Translations under genes and position numbers: made by a program
Assembly (NCBI RefSeq): GCF_029945535.1
Contig: NZ_JAQSCU010000010.1
Coordinates: 753,290 to 817,289 of the forward strand
Origin: Methylotenera sp.
Lineage (GTDB): Bacteria; Pseudomonadota; Gammaproteobacteria; Burkholderiales; Methylophilaceae
Reading direction: 5' to 3'
DNA length: 64,000 bases
Notes under the pieces: model-generated
What the model was told of the DNA's origin: nothing
Seen by the model: the letters and a program-made list of their open reading frames with translations, nothing else
Databases searched by the model: none
In this document: one piece after another, positions 5,319 through 19,784 of the stretch
How positions within the stretch are numbered: the stretch's first letter is position 1
Layout: each line of letters starts with the position of its first letter

Positions 5319-7022
5319 ATGAGTATAAACATAGACAAGCGTGCCTATGCCGAGATGTTTGGTCCGACTGTGGGCGATAAAGTGCGCCTAGCCGATACCG
5401 AACTCTGGATAGAAGTAGAGAAAGATTACACGCTCTATGGCGAAGAAGTTAAATTCGGCGGTGGTAAAGTCATTCGTGATGGTATGGGTCAAGGTCAGTT
5501 GTGTGCTAAAGACGTTGCTGATACGGTCATTACTAACGCATTGATTATTGACTACTGGGGTATTGTTAAAGCCGACATCGGCATTAAAAATGGACGAATC
5601 TCTGCCATTGGTAAAGCGGGTAACCCTGATATTCAGTCAGCTGTGACGATTCCTATGGGCGCAGGCACAGAGATTATTGCGGGCGAAGGCATGATAGTGA
5701 CTGCAGGCGGGGTGGATACACATATTCACTTTATCTGTCCGCAACAAATCGAAGAAGCTTTGATGTCTGGCGTGACAACCATGTTGGGCGGTGGCACAGG
5801 CCCAGCCACTGGGACTTTTGCAACCACTTGTACACCAGGCCCTTGGCATATTCACCGTATGTTGCAATCGGCAGATGCATTTCCGATGAACTTGGGCTTT
5901 TTAGGTAAAGGTAATGTGAGCTTGCCAGAGCCGTTGCGTGAACAAGTTGAAGCTGGTGCCATTGGATTAAAGCTGCATGAAGACTGGGGTACTACACCTG
6001 CTGCGATTGATAACTGCTTGAATGTGGCGGAGGAAATGGACATTCAAGTGGCGATTCACTCGGATACTTTGAATGAATCTGGCTTTGTAGAAACGACGAT
6101 TGCAGCCTTTAAAGACCGCACCATACATACCTTTCATACCGAAGGCGCGGGCGGCGGTCATGCACCAGACATTATTAAAGCGGCTGGTTACGCTAATGTG
6201 CTGCCGTCATCCACTAACCCTACGCGTCCATTTACGGTCAACACTATCGATGAGCACTTGGATATGCTCATGGTCTGCCATCATCTAGACCCAGCCATTG
6301 CAGAAGACATTGCTTTTGCCGAAAGTCGTATTCGTCGCGAGACTATTGCCGCAGAAGATATTTTGCATGATTTAGGCGCATTTTCTATGATGTCATCTGA
6401 CTCGCAAGCCATGGGGCGCGTGGGGGAGGTGATTATTCGTACTTGGCAAACTGCACATAAAATGAAAATACAGCGTGGCGCCCTAGCTGAAGATTCAGCT
6501 AGCAATGATAATTTTCGTGTGAAACGCTATATTGCCAAATATACGATTAATCCTGCGCTCACGCATGGTATTGCCGATACCGTAGGCTCAATAGAAGTTG
6601 GAAAGTTAGCAGATTTGGTTCTGTGGCGACCAGCGTTTTTTGGGGTGAAACCTTCCACTATTCTAAAAGGTGGAATGATAGCTGCTGCTGCGATGGGTGA
6701 CCCGAATGCATCTATTCCTACGCCACAACCAGTGCATTATCGCCATATGTTCGGCGCCTATGGTGGAGGGCTTAAAACCTCCGTCACTTTTGTATCGCAA
6801 GCGGCTTTGCACAATCCGGCTTTGGCTGCGCTTAATTTAAATAAGACGCTAGTACCGGTCCGAGGCACGCGCACTGTCAGAAAAGTAGACATGATACATA
6901 ACGGCTATATGCCAAAAATTGATGTAGACCCTGAAACCTATATTGTTCGAGCTGATGGTATTTTACTTGCTTGTGAACCAGCAAGTATCTTGCCTATGGC
7001 ACAGCGCTATTTCTTATTCTAG
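5319..7022 (+). CDS. ureC: Urease subunit alpha
   Basis: Full-length 567 aa urease alpha with [31 protein letters not shown] motifs. Confidence 0.98.
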
Positions 7023-7062
7023 GTCTATTCTGGTTTTATTCTAGGTCTATTTCTGGGTTTAT

Positions 7063-7563
7063 TTGATGATTAATATTAACAAACGTCTTGCTCATTTTCA
7101 GCAAAGCAAAGTCGATGATCAATTGGTGCTACCTTTTGATTTACGCCAAAGAAGTCGCTTACGTGTGACTTTATCATCAGGTCGTGAAGCCGCATTATTG
7201 CTTGATCGTGGAACTATCATGCGTGGCGGTGATTTACTTGAAACCGAAGATGGCTATGTTGTAGAAATTGTTGCTGCACCACAAGCCGTTACCGATGTCA
7301 CCGCCAAAACGCCGCAAGCCTTAATGTGCGCCGCTTATCATTTAGGCAATCGGCATGTACCCTTGCAAGTGGGTGACGGCTGGCTGCGATTGGAGCAAGA
7401 TCACGTGTTAAATGAAATGTTAGTGGGTTTGGGCATGATCACTACAGATCAAACTGCTCCATTTGAGCCTGAAGCTGGCGCCTACGGTGGCGGTCACAGA
7501 CATGGTGGGGATGATGACAATTATCAGCGTTTGCCCTCTAAACGGTTGAAACCAAATGCTTAA
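7063..7563 (+). CDS. ureE: Urease accessory protein UreE
   Basis: UreE-like sequence with His-rich C-terminus (GGGHRHGGDDD). Confidence 0.93.
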   Translation: MMININKRLAHFQQSKVDDQLVLPFDLRQRSRLRVTLSSGREAALLLDRGTIMRGGDLLETEDGYVVEIVAAPQAVTDVTAKTPQALMCAAYHLGNRHVPLQVGDGWLRLEQDHVLNEMLVGLGMITTDQTAPFEPEAGAYGGGHRHGGDDDNYQRLPSKRLKPNA

Positions 7564-8269
7564 GCAACCGAATATCGCGACTCATATTGCACCCAATATT
7601 GCGTTAAGCCGTTTGCTGCAACTTGCCAGCCCCATGCTGCCAGTCGGAGCTTACAGCTATTCACAAGGCTTAGAATGGGCCATTGAGTGTGGTGATGTAA
7701 CCCATCAAGCAAGCGCTAAAACTTGGATAGCCGATGTGCTAGATATCTATCAACAGCGTTATGAACTGCCAATTTTATATCGCATATATCAAGCTTGGCA
7801 GGCTGATGATATGGCTGCCATTAGTGACTGGGATGCAAAATTTCAAGCTGGCCGTGATACCGCTGAAGCGCTAGCAGAGAGCCGTCAAATGGGCTATTCA
7901 CTGCGTCGCTTATTAAATGATGTTGGGTCGTTACCATTAGAGTTTCTAGAAAAAATCAATGCGCTCGAAACCCCAGCTTTTCCTACAATATATGCAGGCA
8001 TTGCCTATCATTGGCATATTTCTGCACAAGATTTGTTACATGCCTACGCTTGGTCTTGGGTGGAAAATCAAGTCAGTGCAGCCATGAAAGCTGTGCCGCT
8101 TGGGCAGGTGGCTGGCCAAAGAATCCTGCTGGAAGTAGGGGAGTCTCTACCAGAATGTGTCGCACAAGCGATGTGCTTAGAAGATTTTGCAATTAGTAAC
8201 TTTGTTCCCGGCCTCAGCGTTGCTGGGTGTCGCCATGAAACCCAATATAGTCGATTATTCAGATCATGA
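7556..8269 (+). CDS. ureF: Urease accessory protein UreF
   Basis: [25 protein letters not shown] motif. Confidence 0.94.
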
Positions 8270-8901
8270 CCCCTACGAAAATAAAACCCAATACTCAATC
8301 AGAACCCTTACGTGTAGGCATAGGTGGGCCAGTAGGCTCTGGCAAAACGGCTTTAACATTGGCACTGTGTCAGCGTTTACGTGATGTTTATAACATTGCC
8401 GTGGTCACTAACGATATTTACACCAAAGAAGATGCCGAGTTTCTAACACGTAATGAAGCGCTCACGCCAGATCGCATTATTGGCGTAGAAACTGGTGGTT
8501 GCCCACATACCGCGATTCGCGAAGATGCTTCTATGAACCTAGAGGCGGTATCGCAATTGTGCGAACGTTTTGAGGCGCTAGATATTGTGTTTATTGAAAG
8601 TGGTGGTGATAATCTTGCGGCAACATTTAGCCCAGAACTTTCAGACTTAACTATTTATGTGATTGATGTTGCCGCGGGTGAAAAAATTCCACGCAAAGGT
8701 GGCCCGGGCATTACTAAGTCTGACTTACTTATTATCAATAAAATTGATTTAGCGCCTATGGTTGGCGCTTCTTTAGAAGTGATGGACAGAGATGCAAAGC
8801 GTATGAGAGGTGAGCGCCCGTTTATTTTTACTAACTTAAAAATTGGGCAAGGTTTAGAAGAAATCGTTAAATTTATTGAAAAGCAAGGCTTAATGCTTTA
8901 G
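8266..8901 (+). CDS. ureG: Urease accessory GTPase UreG
   Basis: [14 protein letters not shown]-loop, [31 protein letters not shown]. Confidence 0.97.
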
Positions 8902-8911
8902 GAGTAATGAT

Positions 8912-9493
8912 ATGAAAAAACAAATCACAATAGCGGCTTTATTTTCACTGTTTTCTGGAATCGCTAGCGCGCACCCTGGGCATGGTTTAGCAGGACATGG
9001 TTTAGACAGTGCATATGCAGGCTTTATGCACCCATTCACAGGTTGGGATCATTTACTGGTGATGCTGGCAATTGGTGTATGGGCCGCTAAGTTGGGTGGC
9101 AAAGCACGCTGGCAGCTGCCACTGACGTTTGTCGCCATCATGGCGACGGGTGCTGTATTGGGTTTATCAGGTTTAAATTTCGCCTTCGCAGAAACCGCGA
9201 TTGCCGCCAGTGTCATGGCGATGGGCGTACTTTTGATGATGAGCTTGCCAATAAACAAGATGATGCAATTGAGTATTACAGCTCTATTTGCCTTATTTCA
9301 TGGGTTGGCGCATGGTATAGAGCTTCAATCACAATCAAGTTTAGCTGCGTTAGGTGGAATGTTAGTCGCAACGGCTATGCTACATAGCCTAGGCCTTTTG
9401 ATGGCATCTCAGCGCGTTAAGATGGCTCATGTGCTTAACAACTCTTTTGCTTGGTTATTGCTGTTGGTAGGTGGCTACTTATTATTAGGTTAG
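8912..9493 (+). CDS. HupE/UreJ family protein (putative nickel permease)
   Basis: HPGHGLAG...HPFTGWDHLLVMLAIGVWA; follows ureG. Confidence 0.88.
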   Translation: MKKQITIAALFSLFSGIASAHPGHGLAGHGLDSAYAGFMHPFTGWDHLLVMLAIGVWAAKLGGKARWQLPLTFVAIMATGAVLGLSGLNFAFAETAIAASVMAMGVLLMMSLPINKMMQLSITALFALFHGLAHGIELQSQSSLAALGGMLVATAMLHSLGLLMASQRVKMAHVLNNSFAWLLLLVGGYLLLG

Positions 9494-9614
9494 TCGGGTA
9501 TTTATCTGCCTTAGGTTCTAAGCATCTAGGTTTTAAATATCTAGGTTTTAAATATATGAGGGAGATATCATCCCAAGGTATGTTTGTTGCTTACAACAAT
9601 ATACTTTATGAATA

Positions 9615-12600
9615 TTGATGCAATCGGATGTTGAATTGAACCCTAATAATTTGTCATTGGCGCCGCCAGAAAATGCCAAGCCAACGCAGCGCATCATTAA
9701 AATACGCCGGGACTACAACACATGGGTGGCGAATGAATCGATAGAGGATTTTGCCCTTCGCTTTACACCTCGATCATTTCGTAAGTGGTCAATTTTTCGC
9801 GTTTCAAATACCGCTTTAAGCGCCATTTCTTTTCTGGTCTTAGAGGCCGTTGGTGGCACTATCGCGGTTAATTACGGCGCAGTAAATGCGCTGTGGGCGA
9901 TTTTAGCTGTGGGTGTCATTATATTTTTGACCGCGCTACCTATTAGCTTTTATGCGGCTAAATATGGCCTAGACATGGATTTACTCACCCGTGGCGCTAG
10001 TTTTGGCTACATTGGCTCCACCATTTCATCTTTTATTTACGCCTCTTTCACGTTTATTTTATTTGCATTAGAAGCCGCCATTATGGCTTATGCACTAGAG
10101 CTATATTTTCATTTACCTCTTTACCTCGGATACTTAGTTAGCGCACTGGTCGTCATTCCTTTTGTGATTCACGGCGTTACATTAATCAATCGAATTCAGA
10201 TGTTCACACAGCCTATTTGGCTGATACTCATGTGCATGCCTTTTATTGCAATCCTTTATCAAGATCCAGAAGTAATCTCTCGCATGATGCTCTTTGCAGG
10301 TGCATCTGGCGAGCGCGGTGAGTTTAATCTGCTTCTTTTTGGTGCTGCAACTGCGGTAGGGGTGGCCTTAATTCCCCAAATTGGTGAGCAGGTAGACTTT
10401 CTTCGCTTTATGCCTGAAAAAACACCTGAAAATCGTTGGCGATGGAATTTAGGCGTGCTGACGGCTGGACCTGGTTGGGTATTTGTAGGCATGATAAAAA
10501 TGTCAGCAGGTGTTTTACTGGCTTATCTGGTGATTCAAAGTGACATGTCATTTTTACAGGCAACTAATCCTACACAAATGTATTTAGTGGGTTATCAGTA
10601 TTTATTTAGCTCAAAAGAATTAGCTTTAGGTATGACTGCGTTATTTGTTGTGATTTCCCAAGTCAAAATAAATATGACCAATGCTTATGCAGGTTCACTT
10701 GCATGGTCTAATTTTTTTGCTCGGTTAACACATAGCCATCCAGGGCGCGTGGTTTGGGTGGTTTTTAATGCCAGTATCGCAATCGTATTAATGGAGTTAG
10801 ATGTATTTAAAGCATTAGAGCAGGTATTGGCTTTATATTCAAACATCGCTATTGCATGGATTGCTGCTGTCGTGGCTGATTTAGTCATCAATAAGCCACT
10901 TGGCTTAAGCCCGAAGGGCATTGAATTTAGACGCGCTTATTTATACGACATTAACCCTGTGGGCGTGGGTGCTATGTTGCTGGCTTCGTTGTTTTCTATC
11001 ACTGCGTTTTCAGGTGTTTTTGGCGTTGTACCTCAAGCATTCTCTGCTTTTATCGCATTATTTACCGCCTTGATTGCGTCTCCAATAATTGCTTGGCTTA
11101 CCAAGGGTAAATACTATATTGCGCGCAAACCAATTGTCTTTAGCCCAACGACGCGTATCGCTAAATGCACCGTTTGTGAGCGCGAATATGAAACGCCAGA
11201 TATGGCGCATTGCCCAGCATATCAAGGCTATATTTGTTCACTATGCTGTTGCCTAGATGCACGTTGTAATGATGCTTGCAAGCCTGATGCCAAATTTTCT
11301 ACCCAATGGGAAGCTACCCTAAAGAAAGTATTACCTAAAACGCTTTGGACCTATCTGAACTCTGGTTTAAGTGCCTACTTACTTTTGATGAGTATTACCT
11401 TAACTTTTTTAGCTACCTTGCTATGGCTAATTTATTACCATGAAAGCCAAGTGCTGGCGCAAACCGCTGCTAGCTTATTGCCACAATTACGTTCTGGCTA
11501 TCTGAAGATATTTTCCGCACTTGTGTTTGCAAGCGCCATTATTGCTTGGTGGTTGGTATTGACTGGTCAAAGCAGACGAGTAGCACAAGAAGAATCTAAC
11601 CGTCAGACAGGTTTATTGCAACGTGAAATAGAGCTGCACCAAAAAACCGATGCTGAGCTTCAACTTGCACGACAGGTTGCAGATCAAGCTAACCAAGCTA
11701 AAAGTCGCTACATTACCGGTATTAGCCACGAACTTCGTACGCCACTCAATAGCATTTTAGGCTATGCGCAATTGTTAGATAACGATACGTCTATTCCAGA
11801 TAGTCGTTTACAAGCGATACGTGTGATACGTCGTAGCGGCGAACATTTGCTATCACTCATTGAAGGTACATTAGATATTGCCCGTATTGAAGGCGGCAAA
11901 CTCACTTTTGATATCAAACCGTTAAGATTTCCAGAGTTTATTAAGCAAATAGTCAGTATGTTTGAATTGCAAGCGCGTAACAAAGGTATTAATTTTGCCT
12001 ATGAAGTGACAAGCGAGCTGCCAAAAATGGTGCGTGCTGACCAAAAACGCTTAAGCCAAATACTCATTAATATTTTGGGTAACGCCGTCAAGTTTACTCA
12101 ACATGGCGGCGTGGTATTTCGGGTGCAATATGCACGTGAACTTGTGCAAATTGAGATTGAAGATACTGGCCCTGGCATACAAACCGATGAAATTGATACT
12201 GTATTTGAACCGTTCGCAAGAGGTAGCGCAGCTGCCAACGATAGAATAGGCGGCACGGGTTTAGGCCTCACTATCAGTAAGTTGTTAACGCAATTAATGG
12301 GCGGTGAAATCAGTGTGAACAGCGTGGTAGGGAAAGGTACCATATTTAAAATTAAGTTATTTTTACCACAAATACACCAAACTCAAGAAATAGAAGCAGT
12401 ATTAGCCGCCCAACGTATTGGCTATGTTGGCGCAAGAAAGAAAATACTGGTGGTAGATAATGAGTATATTGATAGAGAAATGTTAGTTACTCTGCTCCAG
12501 CCGCTAGGGTTTGAAATGGCCGAAGCCGCCAACGGACTAGAGTGCCTTGAACAACACACAACATTTAACCCTGATCTGATTTTAATGGATCTTGCAATGC

Positions 12601-13064
12601 CTATGATGGATGGCTGGGAAGCAAGTTATGTCATACGTAAAGTACGGCAGTCTGATGTGCCAATTGGTATTGTATCGGCCAATGCTTTCGATAAAGGTTT
12701 AGAGAATACTGCAGGCATAGGTGCCGAAGACTTTATATTAAAACCTGTAGAGCTATCTGAGTTGTTAGATTGGCTAGGTAAACAACTTAATTTAGAATGG
12801 ATTACCGCGTCAGAAAATCAGCTATTGCCTGTCGAAGAGCCAAACTCTACGCCTGTATTGGTTGCACCACCTAAAATCTATCTAGATGAGTTGTTAGCGT
12901 TAATGAAAATAGGGTATGTTCGGGGTATTTCTAAAAAAATAGATGAAATAGAGAGTTTAGATGTCGAATATAAAGTATTTGCTATTGCGATGAGAAAGTT
13001 TGCGCAACAGTTCCAGTTAGCTGCCATGAAGAAATTTGTGGAAGAGATTAACACTTATGAGTAA
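9615..13064 (+). CDS. NCS1-family transporter/hybrid sensor histidine kinase fusion
   Basis: N-terminal ~500 aa multi-TM NCS1-like permease; Cys-rich linker; TMs; HisKA (ISHELRTPLNSILGYAQLL); HATPase (DTGPGIQTDEIDTVFEPF, GGTGLGLTISK); REC (DLILMDLAMPMMDGWEA). Confidence 0.88.
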   Translation: MMQSDVELNPNNLSLAPPENAKPTQRIIKIRRDYNTWVANESIEDFALRFTPRSFRKWSIFRVSNTALSAISFLVLEAVGGTIAVNYGAVNALWAILAVGVIIFLTALPISFYAAKYGLDMDLLTRGASFGYIGSTISSFIYASFTFILFALEAAIMAYALELYFHLPLYLGYLVSALVVIPFVIHGVTLINRIQMFTQPIWLILMCMPFIAILYQDPEVISRMMLFAGASGERGEFNLLLFGAATAVGVALIPQIGEQVDFLRFMPEKTPENRWRWNLGVLTAGPGWVFVGMIKMSAGVLLAYLVIQSDMSFLQATNPTQMYLVGYQYLFSSKELALGMTALFVVISQVKINMTNAYAGSLAWSNFFARLTHSHPGRVVWVVFNASIAIVLMELDVFKALEQVLALYSNIAIAWIAAVVADLVINKPLGLSPKGIEFRRAYLYDINPVGVGAMLLASLFSITAFSGVFGVVPQAFSAFIALFTALIASPIIAWLTKGKYYIARKPIVFSPTTRIAKCTVCEREYETPDMAHCPAYQGYICSLCCCLDARCNDACKPDAKFSTQWEATLKKVLPKTLWTYLNSGLSAYLLLMSITLTFLATLLWLIYYHESQVLAQTAASLLPQLRSGYLKIFSALVFASAIIAWWLVLTGQSRRVAQEESNRQTGLLQREIELHQKTDAELQLARQVADQANQAKSRYITGISHELRTPLNSILGYAQLLDNDTSIPDSRLQAIRVIRRSGEHLLSLIEGTLDIARIEGGKLTFDIKPLRFPEFIKQIVSMFELQARNKGINFAYEVTSELPKMVRADQKRLSQILINILGNAVKFTQHGGVVFRVQYARELVQIEIEDTGPGIQTDEIDTVFEPFARGSAAANDRIGGTGLGLTISKLLTQLMGGEISVNSVVGKGTIFKIKLFLPQIHQTQEIEAVLAAQRIGYVGARKKILVVDNEYIDREMLVTLLQPLGFEMAEAANGLECLEQHTTFNPDLILMDLAMPMMDGWEASYVIRKVRQSDVPIGIVSANAFDKGLENTAGIGAEDFILKPVELSELLDWLGKQLNLEWITASENQLLPVEEPNSTPVLVAPPKIYLDELLALMKIGYVRGISKKIDEIESLDVEYKVFAIAMRKFAQQFQLAAMKKFVEEINTYE

Positions 13065-13065
13065 C

Positions 13066-14004
13066 CTTAAGCCAAGCAGAGACGGTGCGCCTATTGTGCT
13101 CATCGTCGATGATGTGCCCGATAACTTAGCGGTGTTACACGATGCATTAGATGAATCAGGGTTTACTGTATTAGTCGCTAATAACGGCGAAGCCGCCCTA
13201 GTGGCAGCGATAGAAGCGCAACCTGGCATTATATTGCTCGATGCTATCATGCCTGGCATGGATGGTTTTGAGGTCTGCAGAAAGCTAAAAGCAGATATTA
13301 ATACTCGTCATATTCCAATCATTTTTATGACCGGGCTCACTGAGTCTGAGCATGTGGTTGCAGCGTTTCAGGCGGGGGGGACGGATTATATTACGAAGCC
13401 TATACGTGCAATAGAGGTACTCGCAAGAATTGATGCACACATGCAAACTTCGCGATTAATGAGTCAGGCGCGTGGGGCCTTAGATGCATTTGGTCAGGCT
13501 GCTATTGCCATTACGCCAAGTAATGGCAAGGTTGTATGGCAAACGCCGCTAGCAAGAGAGTGGATGCAGCGATATTTTCCAGAGCACTATGCGCATTTTC
13601 AATCCAAAACGCCGCCACAAGTATTATCTTGGATTGAAAAAGTATCACTCGCTCGAGAAACGCAAGCTGACATACCACTCTTGACGATTGTTTTACCAAG
13701 AGGGCGTTTGAACTTTGTTCCAGCAGAACTTAACGATAGTGAACAGTGGGTAATTTTGCTGCGAGAAGAGTCTGATGCTGCTCAGATAGAGGCATTGATG
13801 ACAATATTTAAGTTAACCAGCCGAGAGTCAGAAGTTTTGTACTGGGCCACCAAAGGTAAAACCAGCCGCGATATTGGTGACATTCTTGGCTCCAGCCCAC
13901 GCACCGTCAATAAACACTTAGAGCATGTGTTTGTTAAGTTAGGCGTAGAAACAAGAACTGCGGCGGCGGCATTAGCCTCTAGCAAAATTCGTACTATAAA
14001 GTAA
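13066..14004 (+). CDS. Response regulator, REC + LuxR-type HTH
   Basis: REC domain (VLIVDDVPDNLAVL, ILLDAIMPGMDGFEV); C-terminal LuxR HTH (FKLTSRESEVLYWATKGKTSRDIGDILGSSPRTVNKHLEHVFVKLGVETRTAA); probable start about 13057-13066, track ORF starts 13036. Confidence 0.85.
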   Translation, partial: LKPSRDGAPIVLIVDDVPDNLAVLHDALDESGFTVLVANNGEAALVAAIEAQPGIILLDAIMPGMDGFEVCRKLKADINTRHIPIIFMTGLTESEHVVAAFQAGGTDYITKPIRAIEVLARIDAHMQTSRLMSQARGALDAFGQAAIAITPSNGKVVWQTPLAREWMQRYFPEHYAHFQSKTPPQVLSWIEKVSLARETQADIPLLTIVLPRGRLNFVPAELNDSEQWVILLREESDAAQIEALMTIFKLTSRESEVLYWATKGKTSRDIGDILGSSPRTVNKHLEHVFVKLGVETRTAAAALASSKIRTIK

Positions 14005-14022
14005 TCAAAATCAAACCATAGA

Positions 14023-16242
14023 TTATCGCCGCCGTGCTGCGATAACATTTGGCACCTGCTGTATCAAGCCCAGTAGGCGGCTTAGTTGTTCCAAATCAGA
14101 GATCTCGATCGAAAACTGCATTAACGCCAGATGATTCCTACTCATTGTGTTGGCCTTGGTGGCGTTGATTTTTTCACGAGCAAATAGGTCGCTGATGTCT
14201 CGAAGCAGGCCTTGACGGTCATGTGCTTCCACTTCGATATCCACGTCCGAGCGGACACTCTGAGAGTTACCCCACTGGGCATTGAGCACGCGATCGTGCC
14301 GTTCCTCTGGTAATCGTGCGATAAATGTACATGCCTTACGATGAATCGTTACCCCATGGTCGCGCGTGAGGTAGCCAACAATGACATCCTGAGGCATAGG
14401 TTTGCAGCATTTGGCTGTGCTGGTTTGCAAGTTACCAATACCTTCAATCACGACCTCAGTCTGAGATTTTACATTTGAAATGCGTCTGGGAGCGATTGGT
14501 GTGTCCGTTTGCTCAGGTTTTGGAGCCGCCTCACCCTGAATAGCGAGGGCAATTTGATGCTCGCTGATATTTCCGCGCCCAATGGCAGCCAGAAAATCTT
14601 CAAGTTTCTGAAATTGTAGTTTCTGCGCTATTTTTTCTTGATTGATGGCTCCTACGCCGGCACGGTGCAACTCGCGATCCAACTTGGCACGACCCTGCGC
14701 TATATTTTCTTCGAAATGCTGATATTTGAACCAGTGCCTAACCTTGGCGCGAGCGCCCGGACTTTGCAAGAAACCAAGCGTAGCATTGAGCCAATCGCGG
14801 CTAGGTGAACCATGTTTTGACGTTAGAATCTCTACGCGCTGACCGTTTTGTAGCTTCGTGTTGAGAGGCACGATGCTTCCATCTACCTTCGCGCCGCGCG
14901 TCCGATGGCCTAAATCAGTATGCAATGTATAAGCGAAATCAATAGGGGTGGCGCCTGTGGGTAAATCAATCACCTTGCCTTGTGGCGTTATTACGTAGAC
15001 TTTGTCTTGGAACAGTTCGCTCTTGAATTGTTCTAATAAGTCGCCGCTGTCGGCAACTTCGTCTTTCCATGCCAATATCTGGCGCAACCAAGCGACTTTC
15101 TCGTCGAATTTAGCGTCTGATTTACCGCCTTCCTTATAACGCCAGTGGGCTGCAACGCCCAGTTCGGAATGCTGATGCATCTCAACAGTGCGAATCTGAA
15201 CTTCCAGCGCCAATCCGCGTGGTCCGCTAACGGCAGTATGCAAAGAACGGTAGTTGTTGCTCTTAGGGCGCGCGATATAATCGTCAAACTCACCAGGGAT
15301 AGGCTGCCATAGGTTATGAATCAGACCAAGCACGGTGTAACAGTCTTTAATATCGTCGACCAGAATCCGCACCGCACGCACATCATAAAGCTCGTTGAAA
15401 TCAAGGCGCTTACTTTTCATCTTATTGATGATGCTATAAATGTGCTTGGGGCGCCCAGTCACTTCCCCTTTGATTTCTGCATGGCTCAGTTCATATTTTA
15501 GTTGGTTCACAACATCAATGATGTATTGCTCTCGGTCGACGCGTCGCTCATCCAACATTTTCGCCACTTCTTTGTAGAGTTGAGGCTCTAGATAACGTAG
15601 CGAGAGGTCTTCCAACTCCCATTTAATCTGCCACACACCAAGACGGTTGGCCAGCGGCGCAAAAATTCCCTTGCTCTCCTGTGCAATTCGCTTCTGCTGG
15701 CTAGGGCTAGCTCCAGATAAGCAGCGCAAAGTATGCGTGCGTTCAGCCAGTTTAATCAGTACGACGCGGATGTCTTGCACCATTGCCAACAACATTTTGC
15801 GCAAGCTCTCTACCTGCTGCGCGTGGTCACCATTTTTCAAGTCAGGGTCATGCAGGCCTTCAATCTCGCTGAATGCTTGAATTTGCTCCATACGTGAAAT
15901 ACCTTCAACCAAGCCAACAATATTGGCACCGAATTGAGTTTCCAGCGCTCTATGCCAATCAACGAGGCTCTCTGGCACAGCATGTAGTATCGTTGCGGCA
16001 ATGGTTTCCACATCCATGTTCATGTCGATGAGGATGGTCGCCGCTCCCAGAGCATGCTGCAATAGTGGCGTACCTGTCAGCTCAGTACAACCAGCATAGA
16101 GCGGGGTAACTAGATCGCAGGCAAGACGAATTAACTCAACATCAGTGGTCGAGAAACGCTTCGATAAAGACTCAATCCAAGAAGAAACATCGCTCTCCTT
16201 TGATGCTAGTAAAACAGAATTTGTGTTGTGAATAGAAACCAT
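14023..16242 (-). CDS. relA: RelA/SpoT family (p)ppGpp synthetase, RelA-type
   Basis: Synthetase domain, TGS (VYVITPQGKVIDLPTGATPIDFAYTLHTDLGHRTRGAKVDG), ACT domain; HD region lacks the canonical HD pair (TILHAVPES), as in RelA. Confidence 0.9.
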   Translation of the reverse strand: MVSIHNTNSVLLASKESDVSSWIESLSKRFSTTDVELIRLACDLVTPLYAGCTELTGTPLLQHALGAATILIDMNMDVETIAATILHAVPESLVDWHRALETQFGANIVGLVEGISRMEQIQAFSEIEGLHDPDLKNGDHAQQVESLRKMLLAMVQDIRVVLIKLAERTHTLRCLSGASPSQQKRIAQESKGIFAPLANRLGVWQIKWELEDLSLRYLEPQLYKEVAKMLDERRVDREQYIIDVVNQLKYELSHAEIKGEVTGRPKHIYSIINKMKSKRLDFNELYDVRAVRILVDDIKDCYTVLGLIHNLWQPIPGEFDDYIARPKSNNYRSLHTAVSGPRGLALEVQIRTVEMHQHSELGVAAHWRYKEGGKSDAKFDEKVAWLRQILAWKDEVADSGDLLEQFKSELFQDKVYVITPQGKVIDLPTGATPIDFAYTLHTDLGHRTRGAKVDGSIVPLNTKLQNGQRVEILTSKHGSPSRDWLNATLGFLQSPGARAKVRHWFKYQHFEENIAQGRAKLDRELHRAGVGAINQEKIAQKLQFQKLEDFLAAIGRGNISEHQIALAIQGEAAPKPEQTDTPIAPRRISNVKSQTEVVIEGIGNLQTSTAKCCKPMPQDVIVGYLTRDHGVTIHRKACTFIARLPEERHDRVLNAQWGNSQSVRSDVDIEVEAHDRQGLLRDISDLFAREKINATKANTMSRNHLALMQFSIEISDLEQLSRLLGLIQQVPNVIAARRR

Positions 16243-16453
16243 GAAATATTATCGCATCAAGGTGCCAGCATATACAGCTTAAATGTTAGACAGATTACTA
16301 AAGTCTGCGCAAACTTATAACAAGTCAGCATCACTAAGTTTTGTTAAGTCCTCACCATTTATGGATTAATTATTTACGCATTTCAAAATAAATGGAAAAT
16401 GCTGCGTGGAGAGTAGCTAATACGCAGGACTATTCCGAAGTGATTATATCTTT

Positions 16454-16481
16454 ACTTCGTATAATGTATAGAACGGACTGG
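16454..16481 (+). other. Partial dif-like site: XerC arm + central hexamer, degenerate XerD arm (candidate attL)
   Basis: ACTTCGTATAA-TGTATA followed by GAACGGACTGG, which does not match a XerD arm; shares ~42 bp with the right-hand site. Confidence 0.75.
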
Positions 16482-16626
16482 GCAAGGGCGCGGGTTCCCA
16501 CCATATTTACGTTATGTAAAAAATAAATATGTTATTTAACGGTTAGGAAAGATTTTCCGAACCGTTGAGGGTAAGATACCGAAACTATTCCGAAGAATCA
16601 ATAAAAATATATATAGGGAGAAATTT

Positions 16627-17625
16627 TTGGCTAGCTCTGAAGATAATAACTTTCTTACTGAAACATTCACATCCGCAAAAGAACTAATTACAGAAAGGTT
16701 CTCAAGTCCGTTTATATTTTCATTTTTTGTTTCATGGATTATATTCAATTACAAAGTTGCGATAATTACTTTCACAGATGTTTCTGATAGTTTTTCAATA
16801 GAAAACAAATTAAGCTTAATAAATTCAACATTAGTAAAATCAAGCTTAAGTGTTCCCTATGTGGACGTAGTGATTTTATTAAATGCTTTTGCATTACCTT
16901 TCATGGCAGCATGTTTCTATACCTTTATTTATCCATTTGCAGATTATTACATCACTAGATTTACTTTAGACCGCAAGGTAAAGATTAGAAACGCGCGAGT
17001 ATTATCTGAAGGGAAAATTGTATACAGCCAAAAAGACGTTCAAAAAATCTACCTTCAATACTCTGTGGCAGAAAAGGATTTAACCTCACGCATTGAAAGA
17101 GCTGAAGTAACAGAAAACCAACTAAGAACTCAATTAGAAAGCCTAGAAAAGCTTATAGCGTCTCAAAAATTAGCGGAAGATGAACGTATAAAATCAGAAT
17201 CAGAAAAGTCTCAAAACGAATCTAATAAACCATTAGCTAAAAGTGAAACAATAGAAATGGAAAAGCTAGCTAAAGATATTCAAACGTTTAAAGAGGTATC
17301 AATAGATGATTCACCTAAGATCAGGCGAATAACAATAACTAAAAAACAAATTTCCGAGCTAATTAATAACCTATCAAACGAGGAGCTAAAAGGAATTTCA
17401 TTAATCGGTGAGGTCACCGCTGTCAAAAGCTCAGTCACTGTAAAAGATTTTTCAATGATTTCCTCTCGAAATACATTAGATTCCTTAGTAGAAAGTGGTC
17501 TTGCTAGAATTACAACTGACTTATCTACATTGGAAAAAATTGTTAACCTTACAGGTTTAGGTAATCAAATATATAAACAATTCAAAAATACAGCCCTAAA
17601 GCAGAGAGACTCTAGTTCAATTTAG
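16627..17625 (+). CDS. Hypothetical membrane protein with two predicted TM segments and coiled-coil C-terminal region (element cargo)
   Basis: TM-like segments FSFFVSWIIFNYKVAII and VVILLNAFALPFMAACFYTFIYPF, then Glu/Lys-rich coiled coil; TTG start preceded by AGGGAG. Confidence 0.7.
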   Translation: MASSEDNNFLTETFTSAKELITERFSSPFIFSFFVSWIIFNYKVAIITFTDVSDSFSIENKLSLINSTLVKSSLSVPYVDVVILLNAFALPFMAACFYTFIYPFADYYITRFTLDRKVKIRNARVLSEGKIVYSQKDVQKIYLQYSVAEKDLTSRIERAEVTENQLRTQLESLEKLIASQKLAEDERIKSESEKSQNESNKPLAKSETIEMEKLAKDIQTFKEVSIDDSPKIRRITITKKQISELINNLSNEELKGISLIGEVTAVKSSVTVKDFSMISSRNTLDSLVESGLARITTDLSTLEKIVNLTGLGNQIYKQFKNTALKQRDSSSI

Positions 17626-17799
17626 TTGGAAATTTCAGCATACCCGGTCCACGCTTTCTAGAAGTAATTTGTAGCGGCCAATTAATCAACCAACGACCAT
17701 TCTCAAGTTTTTTTCCAGACATGCGCCCATTAGTTAGCAGCTGGCGAACTCTACGTTAATAGATAAGCGTTTTGCCACTTGTGCAGGTGTAACTTGCAT
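17612..17799 (-). pseudogene. Frameshifted small helix-turn-helix (excisionase-like) protein
   Basis: Reads MQVTPAQVAKRLSIN then, after a 1-nt shift, RRVRQLLTNGRMSGKKLENGRWLINWPLQITSRKRGPGMLKFPTKLN. Confidence 0.5.
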
Positions 17800-17801
17800 A
17801 A

Positions 17802-17999
17802 TCATTTAGCATTCAAACGACGCTGTAATTCGACCTCTTGCCTAAGTAAAAATGCTTCGTATTGCTCACAACGTAGCTTCATATCCCTACGCAATGCAAC
17901 TGACAAATGAAAACCTTCAGATTGCGCATATTTTTGATAACGCTCAATCAACTCTGGTTCAATACGAATTTGTATTATCGAAGTTTTAGATTTAGTCAT
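17802..17999 (-). CDS. Small protein, possible ribbon-helix-helix DNA-binding
   Basis: MTKSKTSIIQIRIEPELIERYQKYAQSEGF... resembles RHH N-terminus; internal ATG at 17999 preferred over track start 18032. Confidence 0.5.
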   Translation of the reverse strand: MTKSKTSIIQIRIEPELIERYQKYAQSEGFHLSVALRRDMKLRCEQYEAFLLRQEVELQRRLNAK

Positions 18000-18142
18000 A
18001 AAAACCCTTAAAAATGTAGTTTGTAATGACAATGTATGTACAGTGTCATTACATTTAGCTGTTGAATAGTGTCCGTAACCCGCATGGTTGCTTGTTCGTT
18101 TACAATGTGTCCGTAATATAAATTAAGGGACACACCTTCAGC

Positions 18143-18179
18143 CAAACCGCTTGAGGCGCTGGCGCGCCTCTGCGGTTTG
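18143..18179. repeat. Strong imperfect hairpin within the element
   Basis: CAAACCGC-TT-GAGGCGC-TGGC-GCGCCTC-T-GCGGTTTG. Confidence 0.8.
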
Positions 18180-18366
18180 TCTTAAGGTAGCCCATGAGTT
18201 AATAAAAAAGTCCTATTGGCGACTCTTGTAAATTCACAAATGCAGTCTACAGAGGAGGGCGCACAAACAAATATATTAATGAGTGTGATTGCTTCGCAAG
18301 GCAACAGCATGGCTACGCCATGTTGCCAACGCTGGAGCGTTTCACAGAGAAAGTAGGGAGCTAACA

Positions 18367-18801
18367 TCAACGCATACCCCCTTGAATGACTCTCAAATGC
18401 AGACGCTCGATAGGCACCCTTTTTACTTGCTTTGCCAACTCACGAGCTTTTTCTCTTTCTGCAATCCATATACGCGCCATTTGGAACATGTTTTGAATAT
18501 AGAGCAACTCATGTGCTCTGAATTGACGACCAGTAGGGTTGTAGATTGAGCCGCCCCGAATAGACCAACCTTCCCATTCTTTACCAGGCAATTCGTAATT
18601 AGTTAAAACACGTAGTAACTTAAAAGACGCATAAGGAATGGTAGTTTTACCAGCTTCCCAATTATCAACAGTTTTTGGGCTGACATGTAGAAGCTCTGCG
18701 ACGTTTTTTTGGCTTAAGCAAGCCATACGCCTTGCTAAAATAAAATCTTCAGCCAGAGGTGGGTAAAATCGCTTCGGTTTGTATTTAGGCATAATAAGCA
18801 C
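18367..18801 (-). CDS. XafT/VC1465-like Xer recombination activation factor (XRE-type HTH phage protein)
   Basis: PPLAEDFILARRMACLSQKNVAELLHVSPKTVDNWEAGKTTIPYASFKLLRVLTNYELPGKEWEGW, recalled as the style of the TLC-phage VC1465/DUF3653 family; adjacent to dif sites. Confidence 0.72.
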   Translation of the reverse strand: MLIMPKYKPKRFYPPLAEDFILARRMACLSQKNVAELLHVSPKTVDNWEAGKTTIPYASFKLLRVLTNYELPGKEWEGWSIRGGSIYNPTGRQFRAHELLYIQNMFQMARIWIAEREKARELAKQVKRVPIERLHLRVIQGGMR

Positions 18802-19086
18802 CTAATGCAATGATTCTAGTGATTCAAGTTCTTCATATTTCTCAAAGAGCTTGTCACAAGTCAGTCCAATACAAACATCTGAAAACTTACTTAGATCAGA
18901 TATCGCAGCGTGAGTATCGAAAGAAAAGCCAAAGAATTTTTCCGCGTGTTGAATAGAATTAATTAAAGGGGCTTGTAAAACTGGATTATTTATAAGACCA
19001 TTGAAGACATCAATCGCAATCAAACATAGTTTGAGCTGCTCCTGTGTCAAATCTAGTTGCACCAAATCTTGTGACAAGTTCACCAT
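18802..19086 (-). CDS. Hypothetical protein, apparently co-transcribed with the XafT-like gene
   Basis: 94 aa ORF abutting the XafT-like ORF, same strand. Confidence 0.5.
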   Translation of the reverse strand: MVNLSQDLVQLDLTQEQLKLCLIAIDVFNGLINNPVLQAPLINSIQHAEKFFGFSFDTHAAISDLSKFSDVCIGLTCDKLFEKYEELESLESLH

Positions 19087-19169
19087 TTGTATATCTCCTG
19101 ATAAATGGTGAAAACCCGCGAGGGGACTTGCTAATCCGCCGATTACTATTCCGAAGCGATTATATCTTT

Positions 19170-19197
19170 ACTTCGTATAATGTATATTATGTAAAAT
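19170..19197 (+). other. Complete dif-like XerC/XerD site
   Basis: ACTTCGTATAA TGTATA TTATGTAAAAT; central hexamer identical to E. coli dif and XerD arm one mismatch from it. Confidence 0.85.
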
Positions 19198-19265: not shown

Positions 19266-19784
19266 CTAATTAAATTTATTCTTAATTAGATGATCTACAC
19301 TCAACTTACCTGCGCCACCAAACAGCAATGGTAAAAACATCATTAGGTAAATAAGTGGTAATTTGTAGTTACCAAATCCGTCGCCATCTTCGTCAACGAT
19401 TCTGTAACCTTTGAGTAGCTCGCTTAAGTTGCTTACATGTTCAGGCCAATGCACGGCTGAGATTGCAACTATGGTGAGAATCATTAACGATATTGAGAAA
19501 AATCTTGTGGCAAAACCAAATGCTAGCGCAAACGCGCCAGTAATCTCAAAAAATGTTGAGATGCCCCAACTAATATCCGGTGGTAATAAATTGAATGGAA
19601 ATGGAAAAGCTAAATCTGCAAACCAATTGGTACCGTGTAGTTTTTCAAAGCCAGACTCACCAAATTCCCATGCCAGTAGCAATCTTAAAAATAGTTGAGG
19701 TACACTTTCTGCTAGATTATTTAGTTGGTTGATACCAGCTTTATATAAATTTAAACCGCTGGAGATTAAGTTTGTTGTACTCAT
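19266..19784 (-). CDS. DoxX family protein, HvfX-like
   Basis: DoxX-type membrane protein with DEDGDGFGNYKLPLIYLMMFLPLLFGGAGKLSVDHL. Confidence 0.7.
   Translation of the reverse strand: MSTTNLISSGLNLYKAGINQLNNLAESVPQLFLRLLLAWEFGESGFEKLHGTNWFADLAFPFPFNLLPPDISWGISTFFEITGAFALAFGFATRFFSISLMILTIVAISAVHWPEHVSNLSELLKGYRIVDEDGDGFGNYKLPLIYLMMFLPLLFGGAGKLSVDHLIKNKFN

Follow-up and report, generated by a model that had tools for sequence, protein, structure and literature searches.

A small XafT element at dif in Methylotenera: a probable TLC-like, Rep-less satellite of inoviruses

The TLC phage (TLCphi) carries an attP that consists of a XerC arm and a central region followed by a degenerate XerD arm, and upon its insertion dif is restored on one side (PMC4246890). 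The phage has an autonomous replication module (PMC4246890), and its integration is described as XerD-first and FtsK-independent recombination (PMC4246890; for XafT via PMC9765430). The gonococcal genomic island and LME-1 (IMEX) are likewise inserted by Xer, which yields a modified site on one side and a wild-type dif on the other (PMC9765430).

We analyzed a window of 64,000 nucleotides from Methylotenera sp., in which an insert of ~2.7 kb is situated at dif (Table 1). A TLC-phage-type attachment architecture had been claimed for this insert in the initial annotation, and the claim was borne out by the sites themselves, by the empty sites of relatives and by the presence of XafT. As argued below, the window element is quite probably a TLC-like satellite of inoviruses that lacks a Rep of its own.

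Table 1. Features of the window element and its flanks (window positions)
Feature	Position	Strand	Remarks
RelA/SpoT-family gene, left flank	14023..16242	-	
Left 42-bp direct repeat	16429..16470	+	scar motif ACTATTCCGAAG, host XerC arm and central hexamer; also at the empty site of G158
Left half-site	16454..16481	+	XerC arm ACTTCGTATAA, hexamer TGTATA, then non-XerD arm GAACGGACTGG
Left-end copy of the conserved att-flanking motif ACTATTCCG	16584..16592	+	
332-aa cargo gene	16627..17625	+	membrane segment and predicted coiled coil
Broken HTH_17 (excisionase-like) gene	17618..17809	-	intact in sister elements
66-aa Arc/RHH-like DNA-binding protein	17802..18002	-	weak assignment
Noncoding intergenic region, candidate inovirus-type origin/packaging region	18033..18366	+	strong ssDNA hairpins, z = -4.0
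GTGTCCGTAATATAAATTAAGGGACAC hairpin, candidate Rep nick site	18107..18133	+	core common to inoviruses of G056, G174, G175 and IMG/VR contig L264
GC-rich hairpin AAACCGC..GCGGTTT	18144..18178	+	3' of the nick-like hairpin
XafT, VC1465-family Xer recombination activation factor	18367..18801	-	ATG start 18792; NF040522
94-aa protein	18802..19086	-	no named relative; small gene in the equivalent position of most sister elements
Right 42-bp direct repeat	19145..19186	+	XerC arm of the element and hexamer; motif ACTATTCCG 25 bp ahead of this arm
Intact dif	19170..19197	+	ACTTCGTATAA TGTATA TTATGTAAAAT; restored at the right side of the element
HvfX-family gene, right flank	19266..19784	-	

Attachment sites and empty sites

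The complete dif-like site on the right, which had been recognized in the initial annotation, was confirmed by inspection of the sequence and by a search for its uniqueness: with two mismatches allowed, the 17-mer ACTTCGTATAATGTATA occurred at only two places in the 3.0-Mb genome, being this dif and the left half-site, and the reversed control gave one match. The left site (16454-16470) had been described as a XerC arm and hexamer without a XerD arm; indeed, the sequence 3' of the hexamer (GAACGGACTGG) agrees with the XerD consensus at 2 of the 9 scored positions, and the site does not qualify as an attP of the CTXphi/VGJphi type, which has a XerC as well as a XerD arm. The repetition of arm and hexamer at both ends also held, but the repeat is longer than had been stated, comprising 42 bp with 98% identity (16429-16470 versus 19145-19186). 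With regard to the concern that the real dif might lie elsewhere, the GC skew (in 2-kb windows), positive at first, became negative at about 14-16 kb and remained so up to 33 kb; the sign change implies a nearby terminus. The E. coli KOPS motif was too rare here for placing dif on basis of polarity.

Relatives were sought by a search with the left flank in 52 genomes of Methylotenera. The relative found, G158, was 96% identical over 1,254 bp of this flank and is represented by a single contig with dif at 1,525,652 of 3,059,871. Its locus (L118) aligned at 95.1% with window positions 6764-16470 and at 93.8% with the sequence past the right end of the element, with one intact dif between the aligned flanks and exactly 2,716 bp missing (window 16471-19186). 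The expectation that a close relative would lack ~2.7 kb and possess only one dif was thus met by a genome of 95% identity. The right-hand alignment overlaps into 19101-19186, which means that the empty site contains ~85 bp resembling the right end of the element. As the 25 bp by which the repeat is extended are found at this empty site too, they are taken as an older scar, and the ~85 bp as a whole, these 25 bp included, is by its similarity the scar of an earlier related element. The length of the repeat might also have been a sign of a different recombination mechanism, an explanation that was rejected because the extra 25 bp are older. A motif within these flanking sequences, ACT(A/G)TTCCG, starts exactly 25 bp before the XerC arm at every dif locus where it was found, and occupies the same position in the scars of genomes without a strong XafT match.

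A second pair is formed by G068, which has an element (L045), and G063, which has an empty site (L124), with 95.6-95.9% identity on both sides. In G068 the XerC arm of the host (TATTCGCATAA) was kept in the left half-site and the arm of the element (ATTTCGTATAA) is found in the restored dif, and the pair, as judged from the alignment, shows strand exchange within the central hexamer of dif. In a further relative (G142), contig C18 contains relA adjoining a half-site and contig C60 contains XafT, dif and HvfX; this chromosomal place is probably taken by a different XafT element there. Integration of the element at dif is firmly supported by these comparisons, which are based on sequence.

Gene content and the family of XafT elements

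A profile search of the ORFs, which had been suggested as a check, identified XafT (NCBIfam NF040522, 101.8 bits versus a cut-off of 70). The initial annotation had missed this gene, as well as the connection to inoviruses and the existence of a large family of such very small elements, to which this one belongs. XafT is predicted to consist of an HTH domain and a long C-terminal helix and is subject to purifying selection (dN about 0.01-0.29 versus dS 0.23-1.59), as is the small gene beside it. Weak homologs of the 332-aa protein occur in tailed prophages (G056 and G179), and a broken one is located beside Zot in an inovirus at the dif of G056; the protein looks like phage cargo, and PADLOC gave no defence assignment. 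The HTH gene could be recognized by tblastn with the homolog of L038 (53% identity over 64 aa), which revealed an in-frame stop and a stretch of ~17 aa at the start that is out of frame. Among the ORFs of the window element we could not recognize any Rep, Zot or coat gene, the genes by which an autonomous inovirus would be identified, and an autonomous replication module (Cri-type Rep) was absent from the ORFs of the element and its sisters. The earlier observation that the interval lacks a replication initiator therefore extends to every sister inspected.

XafT exceeded the curated cut-off in 18 of the 187 genomes of the Methylophilaceae and, where contigs were long enough, was nearly always flanked by a half-site and an intact dif. 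The family includes 13 complete elements, the window element and at least 12 more, which measure 1,433-2,716 bp, have the same ends and contain no Rep, coat or Zot gene according to an ORF survey. Their common design consists of a XerC arm and TGTATA without a XerD arm on the left, XafT, and an intact dif on the right. A cargo slot holds unrelated genes (332 aa in the window, a 212-aa ORF in L038). Tandem copies were found in L041 and L254, with one tandem pair among the complete elements of the family. A scan for half-sites in the 52 Methylotenera genomes gave 8 matches, all of them in genomes where XafT exceeds the cut-off (control: 0 matches). The same design recurs in other Betaproteobacteria and in Lysobacterales: beyond the Methylophilaceae, XafT was found near dif in Nitrosomonas, Rhodoferax, Comamonadaceae, Luteimonas and others, and elements of 1.3-1.5 kb were found in one Burkholderiales MAG and two Lysobacter/Lysobacterales MAGs, one of them in tandem.

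Several loci deviate from this pattern. In G134 (L072), G144 (L082/L129) and G158 (L118) dif has no strong XafT match, and a satellite right end is present (ACT(A/G)TTCCG at -25; in G144 ~113 bp at 98%); such right ends are putative scars of lost satellites. In G110 (Methylotenera mobilis 13), the exception to the regular layout, the XafT half-site and dif are in opposite orientation and 70 kb apart (L126, G110:C1:1648000-1664000, and L043). On its two sides dif has a 396-aa integrase-like ORF together with a related DNA-binding-like ORF, as inverted copies; candidate explanations are an inversion or another dif-targeting element. A contig filed as Candidatus Latescibacterota (L226) contains a XafT element of 1,527 bp with ends like those of the Methylophilaceae, probably a contamination of that MAG. 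Finally, a group of longer XafT-like proteins (L021-L025, from G135, G158, G072, G107 and G151; mostly 222-236 aa, 57-69 bits) was set aside, as no dif-like site was found in their 3.3-kb loci.

The family bears directly on the possibility that the window element is merely a relic without a life cycle, left by a TLC-like phage or IMEX after deletion of Rep and the phage genes. Such decay would fit with the broken HTH gene, with the scar of an older element beside the window copy and with the lack of a detectable helper in the genome (Zot and Rep_trans were sought), but it is unlikely given that the same compact Rep-less anatomy is shared by the other complete elements in several genera, that XafT is under purifying selection, that tandem copies exist, and that the insertions are recent enough for relatives of 95% identity to be without them.

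Hairpins and the link to inoviruses

The intergenic DNA past the 3' end of XafT folds as ssDNA with a z of -4.0 in the window versus -1.5 in the corresponding block of L041. A BLAST search with the origin block of L041 against phage and plasmid records returned nothing, and the link to inoviruses was seen only in local comparisons with inoviruses of the same family. In this way, the satellite hairpins were recovered in inoviruses, their positions being downstream of Zot, upstream of Rep or next to dif. Over the 187 genomes the hairpin patterns were almost confined to XafT elements and inoviruses. The sequence GTGTGCATGTTATAAGACA had three matches, two in satellites and a third upstream of the Phage_CRI Rep of a dif-integrated inovirus, and CAGTTACACGTAAAGT had nine, seven beside XafT and two in inoviruses (control: 0). 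The hairpin core of the window was found at 12 exact places: 2 XafT elements, 5 inoviruses, 1 integron of the same genome and 4 that remain unexplained.

The closest hairpin partners of the window element are inoviruses whose host is unknown or belongs to another genus. In IMG/VR contig L264 an inovirus that encodes Zot and a rolling-circle Rep adjoins a XafT satellite, the junction being a XerC-arm half-site, and downstream of its Zot we found both the hairpin core of the window and the GTCTACATGGGG..CCCCATACCCC hairpin of sister satellites. The block has the same order relative to the neighboring gene (Zot or XafT) and is inverted relative to the att sites; the match to the window hairpin is short (38 bp, 87%).

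Copies of the core away from any recognized inovirus or satellite (L212:8278, G175:C10:355931, G176:C7:1719787 and G111:C14:161489) are possibly scars or unrelated sites. The host genome contains a second copy of the hairpin block (L207:8760-8859, i.e. G000:C13:343759-343858; 92% over 100 bp) in an apparently gene-free cassette adjoined by an integron integrase (L207:9087-10109; TIGR02249, 468.6 bits), and this integron may have captured a phage-type origin. XafT was not found in the dif-integrated inoviruses inspected (e.g. L174, L175, L176, L209 and L264). Small genes of 97-122 aa separate the origin-like hairpin from the att side in these inoviruses (L264:30-335(-), L209:5228-5518(-) and L176:9769-10134(-)), two of which weakly match phrog_27692; they are candidates for a recombination factor of inoviruses without XafT.

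These hairpins also have to be weighed against a helper-independent, Xer-integrated cargo element whose DNA, linear or circular, is spread via natural transformation or conjugation and in which the hairpins are only regulatory. The small size of the element, the slot with unrelated genes, and the fact that XafT together with the XerCD of the host would suffice for integration are in line with this explanation. Nevertheless, we consider it very unlikely, as the hairpins match intergenic or rep-proximal sequences of inoviruses at several independent sites and an inovirus directly abuts a satellite in L264. The idea of a domesticated host locus in which XafT aids chromosome dimer resolution at dif can practically be discarded, for although XafT adjoins dif in many bacteria, its distribution in the family is patchy, most genomes have dif without XafT, and close relatives have precise empty sites.

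Proposed life cycle and comparison with known systems

As a satellite of inoviruses, the element would in its circular form present an attP in which the XerC arm and hexamer are good and a XerD arm is absent. XafT would activate XerD without FtsK, and XerCD would recombine this attP with chromosomal dif, which would leave the half-site at the left end and regenerate dif at the right end. The hairpins would be cis-acting candidate origin and packaging signals of the inovirus intergenic kind: a helper inovirus may nick the origin-like hairpin and replicate the satellite, and the co-resident phage would provide initiator and virion in trans, so that the satellite is exported as a miniature filamentous particle. 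Insertion at dif, the architecture of the sites, the crossover region, XafT, the lack of recognizable phage genes and the shared hairpins can be read from the DNA alone; helper dependence (replication and packaging by an inovirus) and XerD-first, FtsK-independent catalysis are inferred. Considering the fact that these very small elements carry inovirus origin-like signals and no replication or coat genes, they probably ride filamentous helper phages. The suggestion in the initial annotation that mobilization may need a helper is thereby supported, as no Rep was found in any of the sisters inspected and the origin-like hairpins are present. The shared hairpins could be partly regulatory. Neither Zot nor Rep_trans, the only two helper markers sought, had a match in the host assembly (G000); no helper is therefore visible in it and the window copy may be dormant for now. 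The copy may also be defective, because its HTH gene is broken.

More tentatively, and with considerable doubt, one may envisage an exchange in which the inovirus gives Rep and virion and the satellite gives XafT, by which helpers with an attP that lacks a XerD arm could integrate at dif. The inovirus of L264 has such an attP and, within the contig, lacks a XafT gene of its own.

XafT elements at dif are an already known kind, and XafT-encoding IMEXs were reportedly found to be widespread in beta- and gammaproteobacteria in a paper of 2019. For the Rep-less form of 1.3-2.7 kb with inovirus hairpins we found no description in the literature searched, which did not include that primary XafT paper. 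If our interpretation is correct, it adds prophage satellites far smaller than those of the usual catalogue, in which cis signals accompany one activator and one or two DNA-binding genes, and TLC-type dif integration would be common outside Vibrio. The elements would furthermore offer genetically simple systems, without pathogenicity, for the replacement of FtsK by XafT and for the parasitism of filamentous phages, and may account for the variety of DNA next to dif in many Betaproteobacteria.

With respect to the known systems, the gonococcal genomic island and LME-1 are much larger than the window element, and their modified site retains both arms with few changes, whereas the XerD arm is absent here. 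The RS1 satellite of CTXphi encodes its own Rep, RstA, and uses a CTX-type ssDNA attP, both of which the window element lacks; its packaging depends on a filamentous phage, as proposed here. The inoviruses at dif (L174, L175, L176, L209 and L264) share dif integration and hairpins with the satellites and in one case a cargo homolog, but possess Zot, Rep and coat genes as far as the contigs extend. TLCphi of V. cholerae differs from the satellite family, which lacks a recognizable Rep, measures 1.3-2.7 kb and has its hairpins in common with inoviruses. TLCphi and the window element are nevertheless alike in their att architecture, in a XafT-family activator (VC1465) and in the absence of virion genes, and, apart from the autonomous replication module, marks of the TLCphi type were recognized here: one end with a XerC arm and central region but no XerD arm and the other end with an intact dif, XafT, and an empty dif in relatives (G158 for the window element, G063 for that of G068).
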